In this document: piece by piece, positions 46,613 through 53,128 of the stretch
Layout of the letters: every line of letters begins with the position of its first letter
How positions within the stretch are numbered: the first letter of the stretch is position 1
Assembly (NCBI GenBank): GCA_008690995.1
Contig: VRMN01000002.1
Location: 868,001 to 932,000, forward strand
Length of the DNA stretch: 64,000 bases
From: Porphyridium purpureum
Lineage: Eukaryota; Rhodophyta; Bangiophyceae; Porphyridiales; Porphyridiaceae
Reading direction: 5' to 3'
Notes under the pieces: generated by a model
The model's database searches: none
What the model was told of the DNA's origin: nothing
Seen by the model: the letters and a program-made list of their open reading frames with translations, nothing else
Position numbers and translations under genes: made by a program

Positions 46613-49162
46613 CTACGTCTTTTCTAGATTTATGGAGAGCATGCGAGTAACAAGACTTGGCTCAACGATGCGAAGCAAATCACCGAGTTCAGCGACTGTA
46701 AACGCATCTGCGAGCTCGCGCCAATTCTCTACGAGAATCCCCGCAAGAACAGACTGATCAGCGCCTTGAAGCGTCCGCGCCAGCATGAGCATCACCGTCG
46801 GTAAAACTTCTTTCCTGACTAGATCCATCTCAAACTGACGCCCAAGCGAAGGGCACGACAAATCAGGAGCGCCACGGTTCGTATCCGCATCCACTTTTAC
46901 GTCCGGACGCAGCCAGCCCCCATCAAATTCAAGAATGCGCAACAAAGCGCTCGATACGCCTTCAGCGTTATGCGCACTCGAAGACCAATCCGCAGCGTGT
47001 GATTCAACGCCCCTGTCGTGACTCCAGATCTGGTACGCCTGAATCCCCTCCATGTAAGCCAGCCAGCACTGAAATTCGCGCTGAGCTTCCAAGACTTCAA
47101 AGTCATCTACTGACGAGATGCTTGCAAACAGAGCTTCCGGAATCCACTTGATTAGGTCCAATGCCGCCATCATGCGCTTCAAGAGCACAAATCGCCGAAT
47201 CGCAGTGTTGCAGTACCTTAAAGCATTCGTAGCGTCTTCCATGTCGGGGTACAAGAAGAACTCAATTGCACGAACAATGCATTCTACACTGAATACCTCG
47301 CTGCTAGCAAGCGCTGGCTCTTGCAGTTGTGACGCTCGTGTCGGCTGCGCAGCGTGCTCCAGGATCACAAACTTCTCATGCCACACCATTTCCACGCTTT
47401 GCTTGGCAGCAGCAAGCCGTACGCGTTCCATTTCTTCACTTTCACCTCCTTCACAAAGTACCTGAAGGCATAATGTCCTTCGTTGAACCAAGAAATCGGT
47501 CCGCATTGCCGACTTTTCTGCAATCAGGTCAAAGTACAGCGCATCTTTTAGAAGCGTTGCGATCAAGCGCGTTTGAGTGTCCGCCATGGTTGGAAAGACG
47601 CAATACCGCATCGCCAAAGTGTATACCTCTTGCAAGGAGTGCTCTTGCTCCGACGCACCAGTCGCGCCACTGCCACCACGGTGCTCCACGTACGCAACCG
47701 AGTCGAACAACACGGCGCAATACGAAGCTAGAATGGCATCAGAGTCTGCAACGCAGTACGTGACTGATTTTGGGTAGATTCTGCGCAGAAGTAGCAGCAT
47801 GTGCGCGCATGATCGTACCAACCAACTCACCTGCGAAGCGCAACACTCCTTCATAACGCGAACGAGCTCCACAAAGTTTGTCTTCCATGACGCTTCAGAA
47901 CAATCCCGGACGTGCAGCAAAGCGATTATTCCCAGCATACTGCGTGCATTTGTCCGACAGATGCCCGAAAGTTTGTCATCAAAGGCGCCCTTCTTCTGCG
48001 TGGCGAGAAACGCTTCCAAAATCTCGCTGTCTAAAATATCCGGTACATTAACACTGCTCATTGTATCTGCCGACTGTAACGTGTCGTCCATCGCCGTTTG
48101 ATTCACATTCGCATTTGCAGTCGCTTCTAAGATCATATCGATCCGGTCACGCAGGAGAATGACGAGACGCGCCCATACTTCGTCGTGGTATGACTCGCAC
48201 ACGTTAAGCAAAGTATCAAGCGACCCTCCAAACACACTGTACAGAGCGCGCTCATGCGGGCTAAGAAGTGCCGCGAATGCCGTGTCCGACAGACACAGTC
48301 GCCTCACAAGTGCACGATATGACGCCAGGCAACCTCCCGGCTGCCCGCGGGAATCACTTTGCGCGCTCGCGCCGAGCTCTTCAATCGATGGAGCCGAAGG
48401 CACACACGCTGCGCGCCAAGGTTGACCGGCTTCACGGCAGCAAAGCTGTATCTCATCTAATCGTCCGGCGCGTAGCAATTTAAAGCATTCCTTCATCAAG
48501 CGCATTTCAGCCTGGACTTCATGAGCCTGCCTGTCCTGGGGTTCGACTTTTGACAAGTAGTCTGGATCCGAGACAAACGCGCGTTTCTTGGCTGCGCGAG
48601 AATATGCAAGGCGATATGCCGGATCGTCAAGCGGCGCGAGGTCGGGGCCTCCGCTCCGATCCAATGCGTCGCCGGCCTCCTTCTGCAGCCATTCGATGAC
48701 GCGCCGGCACTTGAGAATGCCTGGATACGTTTGAACTTGTGGTATATCACCGTAAAAAGAGTGCCACAAATCTCGAGGCTTCCGCGTAGAGCCCATCACC
48801 GTCCGCAACGCCAGTGACCACAAATCATGTTCAAAAGCAAGTGACTCGGCCACTCCGTCCGGCGCATGATATGTCTGAGCACGAGCGGTCCCCGAACAAT
48901 AGTCGACGGCTTCAACCATCTTCACAAGAACTGCCTGTTGATCAGAGCCATCATCACCGTGCGCCGCGTCGTCATGCCAACTGGCGGACGAGTCTGCACC
49001 TTGCGCGCCGAGTGCAGCGACATAATCTAGCACAATATTCCCATGCAAACTCTGCAACTGCTGCTCGATCCCGACCACCAATCGCATGGGCATTGACGTG
49101 GGGAGCACATGTGCCGTTCCGCCGCCGTCTGCCAAGCTCCGAAGCGTCTGACCGACCATCAT
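46613..49162 (-). CDS. NUP107: Nucleoporin NUP107/Nup84
   Basis: 849 aa, mostly alpha-helical solenoid. The diagnostic N-terminal part is clear: RRVIEWLQKEAGDALDRSGG, DYLSKVEPQDRQAHEVQAEM and RLMKECFKLLRAGRLDEIQL followed by CCREAGQPWRAACV, matching the Nup107 signature LLRAGxxEEAxxLCxxxGQxWRAA. The C terminus has the expected DLIKWIPEALFAS and FQCWLAYMEGIQAYQIW segments. NUP107 is a core member of the Y-shaped Nup107-160 scaffold of the nuclear pore. Length fits (yeast Nup84 726, human 925). Confidence 0.9.
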   Translation of the reverse strand: MMVGQTLRSLADGGGTAHVLPTSMPMRLVVGIEQQLQSLHGNIVLDYVAALGAQGADSSASWHDDAAHGDDGSDQQAVLVKMVEAVDYCSGTARAQTYHAPDGVAESLAFEHDLWSLALRTVMGSTRKPRDLWHSFYGDIPQVQTYPGILKCRRVIEWLQKEAGDALDRSGGPDLAPLDDPAYRLAYSRAAKKRAFVSDPDYLSKVEPQDRQAHEVQAEMRLMKECFKLLRAGRLDEIQLCCREAGQPWRAACVPSAPSIEELGASAQSDSRGQPGGCLASYRALVRRLCLSDTAFAALLSPHERALYSVFGGSLDTLLNVCESYHDEVWARLVILLRDRIDMILEATANANVNQTAMDDTLQSADTMSSVNVPDILDSEILEAFLATQKKGAFDDKLSGICRTNARSMLGIIALLHVRDCSEASWKTNFVELVRVMKECCASQVSWLVRSCAHMLLLLRRIYPKSVTYCVADSDAILASYCAVLFDSVAYVEHRGGSGATGASEQEHSLQEVYTLAMRYCVFPTMADTQTRLIATLLKDALYFDLIAEKSAMRTDFLVQRRTLCLQVLCEGGESEEMERVRLAAAKQSVEMVWHEKFVILEHAAQPTRASQLQEPALASSEVFSVECIVRAIEFFLYPDMEDATNALRYCNTAIRRFVLLKRMMAALDLIKWIPEALFASISSVDDFEVLEAQREFQCWLAYMEGIQAYQIWSHDRGVESHAADWSSSAHNAEGVSSALLRILEFDGGWLRPDVKVDADTNRGAPDLSCPSLGRQFEMDLVRKEVLPTVMLMLARTLQGADQSVLAGILVENWRELADAFTVAELGDLLRIVEPSLVTRMLSINLEKT

Positions 49163-49347: not shown

Positions 49348-49355
49348 AATATATT
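49348..49355 (+). promoter_or_regulatory. TATA-like element upstream of the permuted tRNA gene
   Basis: AATATATT in an AT-rich stretch about 37 bases before the first tRNA-derived base. In Cyanidioschyzon, tRNA genes are reported to use upstream TATA-like elements; permuted genes have their internal boxes in reversed order. Confidence 0.35.
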
Positions 49356-49391
49356 ATTGTTAGAATTTCTATTCTCACAGCAGTTTGGCAA

Positions 49392-49491
49392 TGAGAAGAT
49401 CCCGGGTTCGAGGTGCTCAGCAGAGGAAGGTCCCGGTGGGAGCTTCTTGGAAGCCGCTCCTATGGCTAAGCGGTATAGCGTCTCACTAGTA
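49392..49491 (+). tRNA. Circularly permuted tRNA-Thr(AGU) with an insertion in the T loop
   Basis: The 3' half precedes the 5' half. 3' half: TGAGA (49392-49396, 3' anticodon stem), AGATC variable loop, CCGGG (49402-49406), TTCGA..., CCCGG (49432-49436), TGGGAGC (49437-49443, 3' acceptor) and discriminator T. An 11-nt spacer follows. 5' half: GCTCCTA (49456-49462, 5' acceptor), TG, GCTA-AGCGGTA-TAGC D arm, G26, TCTCA (49481-49485) and loop CTAGTA(A) with anticodon AGT. Every stem pairs: 7-bp acceptor (one G-U), 4-bp D, 5-bp anticodon, 5-bp T. Flanks TTTGGC (49384-49389) and GCCAAA (49493-49498) pair, giving a bulge-helix-bulge-like processing site at the anticodon loop. The T loop spans 25 nt instead of 7, implying an 18-nt ectopic intron. 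Confidence 0.88.
49412..49429 (+). other. Probable 18-nt ectopic intron in the tRNA T loop
   Basis: Between T-stem strands CCGGG and CCCGG are 25 nt starting TTCGAGG. A standard seven-base loop would be left if 18 nt were removed; the exact borders are ambiguous by a few bases (412-429 is one choice). Ectopic tRNA introns are known from Cyanidioschyzon. Confidence 0.55.
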
Positions 49492-49505
49492 AGCCAAAGT
49501 CTATC

Positions 49506-49510
49506 TTTTT
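49506..49510 (+). terminator. RNA polymerase III terminator (TTTTT)
   Basis: Five T residues eight bases after the 3' pairing flank of the permuted tRNA gene, at the expected place for Pol III termination of the pre-tRNA. Confidence 0.6.
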
Positions 49511-51109
49511 GCTCCGGCTTTCTCTTTTGGCCTCCTCAGACTTCCAAAGCCCATGAACCACTTTGTCATTCTGGTTCCAAGCTAGTCGCATATCATCGGC
49601 TTGTAACACTGCGCTCGTCTCGCCAACCAGTAATCCAACGGCACATGAAAGAGATCTCTCGCACTGTGCCAGAATCCACTTCTTCCTGTTCTGTCGAGTG
49701 CCTCCACTTGCAGGGTCTTCCGTGCACCTGTTTCGCTGCATCCTCCATGCCTTCATGGCGTGGTGAGTTCAAGCGGCGGCAAATGTTGGTCGTAGGTCAA
49801 GTCTGCGAATTTGCTTTTCTCCGGACAGGTTTCAGCAATATCGAGCAAGCACCAACACATGTTAACGCAAGAAACCCGCAACGCGAAAGGCGGAAAGCAA
49901 ATGCGCTGTCGTGGCTCTATTCTTGAAGCCAGTCGTTCCCCGGGCCCCACTTGAGATGCCAATGCCTCGTCACGTACTTTAAAAGTTCGGATAAGATCAC
50001 GGACAAAGTGGCTCCCGTTGAATGTACAAGGAGCACTCTTGACTCGTTCACGAGGCAGGGCCCCGCGTACGCTGCTTATCGACCGCAAAATCCCACCTCG
50101 ATGGATGAAAGGATTCTGTCGTTTTTCAGGAAAATAAAGTCAAATCCGACAAGCTGCGCAATCGATATCGGCACAGAAACTGGCCACGTCGCTCGACCTC
50201 TTGCAAAGGTCGAACTTTGGGACAGCAAAGTTGGCCAGTTGACCGGAAAGGCGCGTACTTCGTGCACACTGAGACGATTGATGGCTATGAAGTCAGGCTC
50301 GGCGACGTGACGTTCTACATGTTGATCAAGCTGCCCCAGAAGGCTCATACCGCCTCGTTACTCGAGCACAAATGGTCTGCTGGCTTCTTCGCGAAGTTTC
50401 ATCGTCTTTCACCTTCCCAGAAGCCAGACATCTTCTGCAGCCGCAGGGTCTTAACGCAATCACGGGCTATGGAATCTGCTCAACTTGTCGCAGCCACCGT
50501 GTGGCGAGCGAGCACTTGGCGCAGCCACGAAAGGACCTTGCTCGTCTCTCGGATGCATCGTGCGATCGCTCTGCTTTCGACTCTAAAAACACAAGTCTTG
50601 ATTACTGGCCGGTTCGAGAGAATGGTCGCTTCGATATTATTGATTCTCGACGGGTTTCTGCCACTGATTTTCTTTCGTCCGTGCCGACTTGATTCGTACA
50701 GCGCCGAAGTGACGGACTGTTCCGATGCTCCTGCATCGAGTGGCAGCGTGATGAATGGGCTATGGAACAAGTTGCAGTTGAGACACCCTCCGTTGCCATC
50801 ATCCTGTTGCCTGGACGCATTGTCCTTGTGCACATTCGACCAGTCTCCAATCCAAAGCGATCTCCTGTTTGAACCCATCCAGTCTCCACCATTTGTACCC
50901 GCGGCCGTGTTTACGTTGCACACGTGTGCGTCGACATGGTAGACGCGTTGCGTAGCAAACGGGTGACCTGCGTCTCCACTTGTCGAGCAACGTCCGGAAC
51001 GAAGTCTCCAATGTTGAAAATGATTCCCTGACTCAACGGGCAGCGCCACTAGCCGCACATCAATTTAGTGTATCCGCAAGCTCCACGGTTCTGCGTGCGT
51101 TGTCGACTG
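49511..51109. other. 1.6 kb without a confidently assigned gene
   Basis: Overlapping open frames occur on the plus strand (49951-50310, 50217-50942 and 50372-50692) and minus strand (50480-51058). Stretches such as FDSKNTSLDYWPVRENGRF and ETIDGYEVRLGDVTFYML look protein-like but lie in different frames, so a decayed or multi-exon gene is possible. On the minus strand, FNIGDFVPDVARQVE faintly resembles 2-oxoglutarate dioxygenases. None is strong enough to annotate. Confidence 0.35.
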
Positions 51110-53128
51110 ATGCGGCGCTCAAGTTTGCACGGCATGGCGATACTGGGATGGGTTGCACAGACTGGGTTACGATCACCTGGGTCTCTCTGTCCGCCGAAAT
51201 GCTGCGACAGAACACGCAGGTATCGACGCACTGCTTTTGCGCCCACTCGATTTGCGCGTGCCCTCCAGACCCGCGTGTCCTTGTCGCCTTCACGAGAAGC
51301 AGCGGTACCGACAGACGGGGTCGCCACGTCAGTTGCCGCGCCGAAGAAGGTTTGCGTGGTCTGGTTCAGGCGCGATTTGAGACTAGACGATAATCCTGCT
51401 CTGTATGCAGCGGTCGCCGAGCATAAGTATGACCTCGTCGTGCCATTGTTCATTGTCGGTGATGACCAGGACGAGCTGCCCGACGTGTTTGCCGCGACTT
51501 CGCGGTCATGCCGTGATCCCTTTGCGCATACTGCGCATTCAGTTTACTTGCAGAGTAGTCTTCAATCCTTCAGCCGCCGGTTAAAGGAACTTGGTGGCGC
51601 TGGACTCCATGTGGTGCAACGCGGTGACCAGACGGTGGCGGCTGTATTGAAAGCAGTTTGCGATTCAGCAAAGAGCACCGCTGTTTTTTTCAATGCGCGA
51701 TATGAACATGGCTGTGCTCAGCAGGATGAGCGGACGATTGCTGCGTTGAGTCGACAAGGCATCATAGTGCACCGGTGCATGGGTGACCTCTTGTTCGACC
51801 CTGCTCGCATTGCGACGGCGCAGCAACGCCAGACAAGACGAACAACACACCAGCAAGATATTGAAGAATCGGACAAGAATAGAAAATTCGCGCACTGGGG
51901 TACGCTGACATGGTTCAAACGACTTGCAGAGTCAAGCACACCATCGTCACATCACGCCGCCTTGGTTCCACCAATCCACTCTTTCTCAGCGCTTGAGATT
52001 CATACTTTGAAGGAACAGAGCGAGCGAATATTACATACTCCTTTGCGGCGTTGGGGGACCAAAGTCATGCAATATTGGGAACCCGGAGAGCAAACGGCAC
52101 AGAAAGCGTTGCGAGAATTTATCGATAATGGCGGACTTTCGGCATACGAACGAAGCAAATCACGCGCAGATATGACTGGTGCCGTATCTAAGCTGAGTAT
52201 GCGTTTGAGGTGTGGGGAACTGTCTCCTCGCACGGTGCAGAATGCGTTTGAAAAAGCCAATGTGCGCCATCGTGCTCCAATCCTGTCGCGGAGGCTGTAC
52301 TGGCGCGACCTGGCGTACTTTCAATTAGCCTTGTTTTCGGATCCTTTGGAACCCATTCGTCCGCAGTACCGCGAGCAGACTTGGCCAGGTACAAAAGAGC
52401 AAGCAGACGCATGGATCCGAGGGCAAACGGGCTACCCCTTAGTCGACGCCGCCATGCGTGAGCTCTGGGAAACCGGGTGGATGTCGCAAAACGTTCGAAT
52501 GATTGCGGCGAGCTTTTTGGTACATATACTGGGCGTGCATTGGCATGTAGGCCTGCGTCATTTCCACAATGCGCTTGTCGATGCAGACGTTGCGATCAAC
52601 ACCATGATGTGGCGCAATGCAGCCGGCGTAGGCGTGGACTCGTGGAATTTTTCTCTCGATCCTGTATCAGACAGTCGATTTGTGGACCCGACTGGTGCGT
52701 ATGTGCGCCGATGGATACCCGAACTTGCTCACTTACCGAATGAGCATCTGCATGCGCCGTGGCTAGCATCGAGCCGCGAAGGCTTGAACTATCCGGAACG
52801 GATCGTCACAGATCTGAAATCGGCACGGGAGCGCATGATGGATTTTTTCCGACAAGCCAAAATCCGGCATCACGCCACGTCATCGGTGTCTTGCAACGAG
52901 CGAGGGTATGATCTTGTGCGGGTGCCAGGTACCAAATCCGAGACCGTGCTCTTCACGCTGCCTTTTTTGCGCAAGGCTGTCCCAAAGGCGCAAGGTATGA
53001 CCGAAGCCACGGCGCAGTCTGTGTCGAGCAAATCGCGGAAGCATGGGCCGAAGAAACCGAGCAAGACAGCATCAAGCAGGTCCTCGGAGAAACGCGCCTT
53101 GACGCGTCAACTGCGCGACTTATCTTAA
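51110..53128 (+). CDS. Cryptochrome/photolyase family flavoprotein
   Basis: 672 aa from the ATG at 51110 (another at 51134); earlier codons lack ATG. A long Arg/Ser/Cys-rich leader of ~95 residues may be an organelle signal. KVCVVWFRRDLRLDDNPALY starts the alpha/beta antenna domain. The FAD domain includes WFKRLAESSTP, LSMRLRCGELSPRTV and RLYWRDLAYFQLALF, then GYPLVDAAMRELWETGWMSQ, FHNALVDADVAINTMMWRN, GVGVDSWNFSLDPVSD and DPTGAYVRRWIPEL. This is the standard CPF core of a class I/III or plant-like member. Whether it repairs CPD lesions or senses blue light is not decidable from sequence. The C-terminal ~90 residues are basic and disordered. Confidence 0.88.
   Translation: MRRSSLHGMAILGWVAQTGLRSPGSLCPPKCCDRTRRYRRTAFAPTRFARALQTRVSLSPSREAAVPTDGVATSVAAPKKVCVVWFRRDLRLDDNPALYAAVAEHKYDLVVPLFIVGDDQDELPDVFAATSRSCRDPFAHTAHSVYLQSSLQSFSRRLKELGGAGLHVVQRGDQTVAAVLKAVCDSAKSTAVFFNARYEHGCAQQDERTIAALSRQGIIVHRCMGDLLFDPARIATAQQRQTRRTTHQQDIEESDKNRKFAHWGTLTWFKRLAESSTPSSHHAALVPPIHSFSALEIHTLKEQSERILHTPLRRWGTKVMQYWEPGEQTAQKALREFIDNGGLSAYERSKSRADMTGAVSKLSMRLRCGELSPRTVQNAFEKANVRHRAPILSRRLYWRDLAYFQLALFSDPLEPIRPQYREQTWPGTKEQADAWIRGQTGYPLVDAAMRELWETGWMSQNVRMIAASFLVHILGVHWHVGLRHFHNALVDADVAINTMMWRNAAGVGVDSWNFSLDPVSDSRFVDPTGAYVRRWIPELAHLPNEHLHAPWLASSREGLNYPERIVTDLKSARERMMDFFRQAKIRHHATSSVSCNERGYDLVRVPGTKSETVLFTLPFLRKAVPKAQGMTEATAQSVSSKSRKHGPKKPSKTASSRSSEKRALTRQLRDLS

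Follow-up and report, generated by a model that had tools for sequence, protein, structure and literature searches.

In the red alga Porphyridium purpureum, a threonine tRNA gene is encoded with its 3' half first and its 5' half second. The gene lies in a window of 64,000 nucleotides (C1:868001-932000), i.e., the whole stretch of DNA that was analysed, and genome searches were performed on the assembly of 22,164,627 bases in 46 contigs. Judged by its sequence features, the locus is very probably a working nuclear gene for tRNA-Thr(AGU), circularly permuted and apparently present in a single copy.

Structure of the tRNA-Thr(AGU) locus

A preliminary description of the window had placed the 3' half 5' of the 5' half, and every element named there is found at its position (Table 1). 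When the halves are swapped and 18 nt of the T loop are removed, ARAGORN reads a 72-nt tRNA-Thr(agt) with every stem paired; the pairing of the four stems had been called exact, which holds apart from one G-T pair in the acceptor stem. A full cloverleaf with the conserved D-loop and T-loop positions claimed earlier is obtained from the swapped halves by both ARAGORN and covariance-model alignment. CCA is not encoded at the 3' end of the 3' half. The locus shows the properties of type II genes (Soma et al.): halves on the same strand and in swapped order, a short spacer and a full cloverleaf. The 11-nt spacer is free of T runs, and, as far as signals can be read from sequence, a promoter motif lies upstream and the T5 run, present as described, follows the 5' half.

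The identity of the permuted tRNA-Thr(AGU) is supported by ARAGORN, the genome query, the rotated covariance model, the promoter motif and the structural descriptor. The original reading was incomplete in that it missed a putative T-loop intron at 59/60 and the presence of about ten permuted genes in the genome. Among ten ORFs scanned with Pfam, the nearest are an ORF with a Nup84/Nup100 domain (46613-49162, minus strand) on one side and a photolyase ORF (51068-53128; 100% identity over 99% of its length to a Porphyridium purpureum protein) on the other; because of these neighbours, the setting looks nuclear.

Table 1. Elements of the tRNA-Thr(AGU) locus, in window positions
Feature	Position	Strand	Comment
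AT-rich upstream promoter-like element, TATTATTGTTAGAATT	49352-49367	+	Starts 39 nt 5' of the 3' half; motif from 17 conventional-order tRNA genes
Junction helix, 5' flank strand TTTGGC	49384-49389	+	Complementary to 49493-49498
3' half, exon 1 (A38, anticodon stem 3' strand, variable loop, T stem 5' strand, T-loop 54-59)	49391-49412	+	
Anticodon stem 3' strand TGAGA	49392-49396	+	
T stem, CCGGG with CCCGG	49402-49406 with 49432-49436	+	
Putative T-loop intron, 18 nt, at 59/60	49413-49430	+	Boundary suggested by BHB-like fold
3' half, exon 2 (position 60, T stem 3' strand, acceptor 3' strand, discriminator T73)	49431-49444	+	
Acceptor 3' strand TGGGAGC	49437-49443	+	
Intervening sequence, 11 nt	49445-49455	+	Would link the tRNA 3' end to the 5' end in the precursor
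5' half (acceptor 5' strand, D arm, anticodon arm up to A37)	49456-49491	+	
Acceptor 5' strand GCTCCTA	49456-49462	+	
D arm	49465-49479	+	
Anticodon arm	from 49481	+	Anticodon AGT at 49488-49490
Junction helix, 3' flank strand GCCAAA	49493-49498	+	Complementary to 49384-49389
T5 run	49506-49510	+	Likely RNA polymerase III terminator

Unmodified ARAGORN and Rfam scans of the whole window give no tRNA match. The rotated covariance-model search, proposed earlier as a check, was run with a model (R2) of seven conventional-order tRNAs of the genome rotated by computer; no Thr gene was included, and the introns of the training tRNAs (T-loop introns in two of them, an anticodon-loop intron in one) were excised beforehand. 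The sole R2 match in the window up to E 10 is the tRNA-Thr(AGU) locus (49391-49491, 49.4 bits, E 1.1e-13 by a rough calibration). An earlier model, R1, was trained with the window gene included, and its E-value is left out of the evidence. A strict structural descriptor, composed once the locus was already known, has one match in the window (the tRNA-Thr locus) and none in 60 + 3000 dinucleotide-shuffled windows. Chance resemblance within ordinary intergenic DNA, with its negligible probability, is ruled out by the score of a model built without the Thr(AGU) gene and by the 3060 shuffled windows devoid of descriptor matches. What it has in its favour is the junction helix: the flanks TTTGGC and GCCAAA, described earlier as pairing into a processing site, do form 6 bp, but 13.6% of random flanks give an equal or better helix (6 bp or more), and the pairing is not significant singly.

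As to further copies, the only match of the 72-nt mature query in the whole genome is the tRNA-Thr locus, split into two segments whose order is swapped (nt 1-37 at C1:917456-917492, E 5.4e-12; nt 58-72 upstream at C1:917430-917444, a weak match with E 4.8), so a near-identical conventional duplicate is rejected. Two D-arm patterns give 73 and 51 places; most are chance matches, as the same patterns written backward yield 70 and 49. The tRNA-Thr locus is the only one of these 124 places with the anticodon AGT. A TGGT-type pattern gives 160 places, of which the first ones listed were inspected. Two of those listed read AGT (C2:275291 and C14:147347); both lie inside open frames, lack stem partners and a T-loop motif, give no match with ARAGORN or R2, and were rejected. 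Thus a conventional tRNA-Thr(AGU) gene elsewhere, the finding that was to speak against permutation, was met neither with the D-arm and TGGT-type patterns nor with the mature query, in non-exhaustive searches that a diverged or D-arm-broken copy could escape.

The locus could be a dead relic, i.e., a permuted pseudogene, the functional conventional tRNA-Thr(AGU) being situated elsewhere. This is improbable, since all stems are intact, a promoter motif and a likely terminator are present, and neither the mature query nor the AGT places of the two kinds of pattern provide another gene, even if an ordinary tRNA-Ile(AAU) escaped the genome-wide RF00005 scan, in which 63 of 475 candidates were scored, and the TGGT-type places were inspected in part. 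Eukaryotes decode ACU and ACC via A34(I)GU, and from this general knowledge the AGU gene should be essential. Still more improbable are two neighbouring broken tRNA genes (tandem or split) or halves trans-spliced with distant partners: the two halves are complementary to each other in the acceptor and anticodon stems (12 pairs), neither has a second copy in the genome query, and nine further isoacceptors have genes of the same arrangement. Such an arrangement finds some support in the origin proposed for permuted genes, tandem duplication with loss of the outer segments, as described in a 2014 review (PMC3978253). The working permuted gene is the reading retained below.

Putative promoter and processing signals

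A 16-nt motif (ATATATATTTTAATTT) was trained on the 85-100 nt upstream of 17 conventional-order genes; it starts 33-50 nt 5' of 16 of them and 76 nt 5' of tRNA-Arg(UCU). Because these genes trained the motif, the permuted genes are its sole test. It is present in nine of ten permuted genes (the exception being Ile UAU), starting 39-64 nt 5' of the 3' half, with scores that no more than 1.03% of 4000 random stretches attain. The Thr(AGU) score is the second lowest among the nine; of 4000 random 100-nt stretches taken from the window, 0.75% attain it. The motif supports a transcription start ahead of the 3' half in permuted genes.

The strands of the Thr(AGU) T stem are 25 nt apart instead of 7, therefore 18 nt need removal, and we infer an 18-nt T-loop intron at 59/60. 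Its boundary (49412|49413...49430|49431) is placed according to a BHB-like layout, in which positions 54-57 pair with the four bases preceding a 3-nt bulge beside the T stem. In ten T-loop-disrupted genes (seven introns and three permutations), 30 of 40 such pairs are formed versus 16.5 expected, and 1 in 50,000 random draws is as good. All four pairs are found in four genes, three in Thr AGU, Trp, Glu and Arg CCU, two in Val and none in Pro CGG. The putative Thr(AGU) intron, with three of four pairs and the bulge GGT, has the layout of a BHB intron.

Next to 37/38 the Thr(AGU) helix is relaxed, with no canonical BHB, and its 6-bp outer helix is unremarkable singly. For the seven type II genes together, among 5040 re-pairings of the flanks, 8 attain the observed helix length and one, the true pairing, attains the energy; Cys and Glu, with four contiguous pairs each, contribute little to the length. 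The free MFE fold of the bare Thr transcript has -35.6 kcal/mol and a different structure, versus -32.6 kcal/mol with the tRNA pairs imposed. The genome contains splicing-endonuclease ORFs, two with PF01974 and one with PF12928 (Sen54-type; subunit names are tentative), and two RtcB ORFs. For the C. merolae endonuclease, Sen2, Sen34 and Sen54 are reported and Sen15 is given as absent in the review (PMC3978253).

Synthesis of the tRNA could begin at the upstream AT-rich promoter, from which RNA polymerase III would cross the 3' half, the 11-nt spacer and the 5' half, terminating at the T5 run. The precursor would fold into a tRNA body with its free ends meeting in the anticodon loop. The tRNA-splicing endonuclease would remove the T-loop intron at 59/60 first and then cut the flanks at 37/38; an order of this type (intron first, flanks after) is reported for Cyanidioschyzon merolae in the same review (PMC3978253). 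Subsequent joining of the exon ends would give a circular intermediate. Such intermediates are opened at the acceptor stem by RNase P plus a 3' nuclease, which could perform this reaction here too, and CCA would then be added. All these processing steps for Thr(AGU) are modelled on C. merolae.

tRNA genes of the P. purpureum genome

With 63 of 475 candidates scored, the RF00005 scan gives at least 17 matches at E up to 10, at least 12 of them above the cut-off. The ordinary tRNA-Ile(AAU) that it missed (L072) was recovered by the D-arm pattern. The census of isoacceptors combines RF00005 with D-arm and T-arm patterns, and is incomplete and non-random. It comprises 27 isoacceptors, including eight uninterrupted (Lys CUU, Phe, Arg ACG, Gln CUG, Ala CGC, Sec, Leu CAA and Ile AAU), nine that keep the normal order but contain introns (Arg UCU, Ala AGC, Ala UGC, Met, Arg UCG, Val CAC, Pro CGG, Pro UGG and a tentative Gly UCC) and ten permuted. 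Seven of the latter are type II, with the junction at 37/38 (Thr AGU, Thr UGU, Leu AAG, Leu CAG, Cys GCA (L060), Trp CCA and Glu UUC), and three have the junction at 59/60 (Lys UUU, Arg CCU and Ile UAU). With introns excised, ARAGORN reads eight of the nine intron-bearing normal-order genes (all except the tentative Gly UCC, L012); after swapping and intron removal it reads all ten permuted genes, whose exon borders were set by hand.

R2 was run on 90 loci, where it gives Thr UGU 53.3, Cys 52.5, Trp 45.6, Leu CAG 29.3 and Leu AAG 28.6 bits, the remaining matches having at most 20.4 bits, and on nine further loci, with the window gene (L001) and one 9.9-bit match; 22 of 121 loci, mostly duplicates or training genes, were left out. 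Glu UUC was spotted by eye, its 3' half lying partly beyond L111, which scored 13.8 bits with R2. Model R3, rotated at 59/60 and run on 91 sources, gives Lys UUU 67.9 and Arg CCU 61.6 bits, and 61.4 bits for Arg UCG, a member of its training set. Normal-order genes also score with R3 (Ile AAU 38.1, Met 35.7 bits) because their 5' 59 nt stand intact in order; R3 scores below about 40 bits are therefore no proof of permutation.

Ile UAU (L017, C8:565243) has 21.2 bits with R3 and is the weakest of the ten permuted genes, with no upstream AT motif and five Ts within its 63-nt spacer. It also has an apparent D-loop intron. Its permutation at 59/60 appears from a perfect 7-bp acceptor stem, the T stem and BHB pairs. 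The C. merolae tRNA-Ile(UAU) is described with three introns (PMC9602550). A Gly(CCC) candidate (C2:1488708, L110) was rejected, as it has no upstream AT motif and no 3' half recognizable by eye in 301 bases; for L113, L114, L082 and L018, no consistent cloverleaf could be formed, and they are left out of the counts.

Leu(AAG) (L039, C11:1462518) and Leu(CAG) (L081, C45:208983) are nearly identical in the 3' half as far as the acceptor, which would fit duplication of a permuted gene followed by an anticodon change. The normal-order Pro(UGG) (L080, C43:568256) seems to carry a 7-nt anticodon-loop intron and, tentatively, a 40-nt intron in the variable region.

Repeats were also met in the pattern searches. 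GGGCTCATAACCC, which we take to be the anticodon arm of the initiator tRNA-Met, has 37 dispersed matches (34 exact copies) versus 5 in the control, e.g., at L043:498, L045:498 and L077 (minus strand). Two of three copies inspected (L043 and L045) lie in nearly identical DNA. In some LTR retroelements the anticodon half of the initiator tRNA serves as the primer, and because the flanks of L043 and L045 are nearly identical, the copies are suggested to be primer-binding sites of this kind. The initiator tRNA-Met gene itself was not identified among the few matches inspected, which look like retroelement sites. A 33-nt stretch starting with TAGCGGAG, found with the D-arm pattern, has 11 nearly identical dispersed copies (e.g., C1:2184542 and C45:763702) and probably belongs to a repeated element.

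Comparison with Cyanidioschyzon merolae and other algae

Permuted tRNA genes are already known as a kind of gene; the interesting part is their occurrence in Porphyridium and the genome-wide set with break points matching those of C. merolae. The titles and abstract openings met in literature searches contain no report of a permuted tRNA in Porphyridium. According to the 2014 review, permuted tRNA genes have a patchy distribution, and their isoacceptors are not conserved from one organism to another; C. merolae is the sole red alga listed there and is considered unique in having permuted genes plus many ectopic introns (PMC3978253). A red alga beyond the Cyanidiophyceae with about ten permuted genes and 59/60 introns makes this combination wider than C. 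merolae.

Eleven permuted genes are given for C. merolae in the same review, including Thr(AGT) and Leu(CAG) of type II and Arg(CCT) and Lys(TTT) of type IV (PMC3978253). Of the isoacceptors permuted there and located here, four of six are also permuted in P. purpureum with the same junction class (Thr AGU, Leu CAG, Arg CCU and Lys UUU), while Gln(CUG) and Ala(UGC) are not. Label shuffling over the 27 isoacceptors gives p 0.008 for isoacceptor plus class and p 0.11 for isoacceptor alone, values to be read with an incomplete, non-random census and with Leu AAG and CAG as near duplicates. Four further isoacceptors with permuted genes in C. merolae, namely Thr(CGU), Gly(CCC), Leu(UAA) and iMet, do not appear in this incomplete census and are therefore neutral on shared descent.

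Compared by isoacceptor and junction class rather than by C. merolae sequence, the shared set suggests inheritance from a red-algal ancestor. Chances are about even that permuted tRNA genes existed in the common ancestor of the Cyanidiophyceae and other red algae, and that the same isoacceptors and break points (37/38 in Thr AGU and Leu CAG, 59/60 in Arg CCU and Lys UUU) have been retained since the split. If so, permuted tRNA genes would be neither of recent, accidental origin nor peculiar to algae of hot, acid habitats, and red algae generally may have a splicing endonuclease of relaxed specificity. An ancient versus a recent origin is now testable through break points across red algae.

tRNAscan-SE sets of 22-26 genes are reported for unicellular red algae, except for 82 in G. 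sulphuraria (PMC10496412); permuted and intron-broken genes could explain such small sets. Codon-usage studies that use default tRNA scans of the P. purpureum genome have likely missed these genes.

In detail, and within what the consulted sources describe, the closest known counterpart is the type II Thr(AGT) gene of C. merolae, with the same isoacceptor and junction at 37/38; it has a 24-bp spacer and no intron, unlike the P. purpureum gene with its 11-nt spacer and putative 18-nt T-loop intron (PMC3978253). Spacers of the other shared genes also differ between P. purpureum and C. merolae, respectively (Leu CAG, 44 and 9; Arg, 58 and 23; Lys, 27 and 38), as do the introns of the shared permuted genes. 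Common to the permuted genes of C. merolae and Thr(AGU) here are a TATA-like upstream element (in most C. merolae genes), a downstream T run and the lack of an encoded CCA (PMC3978253). Type II permutation and a T-loop intron are combined in one gene, as in P. purpureum Thr(AGU), in the C. merolae Gly(CCC) genes, which represent another isoacceptor and have a 13-bp intron at 55/56 rather than 59/60 (PMC3978253).

Among green algae, the permuted genes of Ostreococcus and Micromonas have swapped halves and are nearly all of type II, like Thr(AGU) here; they represent other isoacceptors, except for Cys(GCA), which is of type II in P. purpureum too (PMC3978253). As described there, green algae have almost no ectopic introns, unlike P. 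purpureum (PMC3978253). The permuted tRNA genes of Auxenochlorella, as far as they are described, have swapped halves as in P. purpureum.
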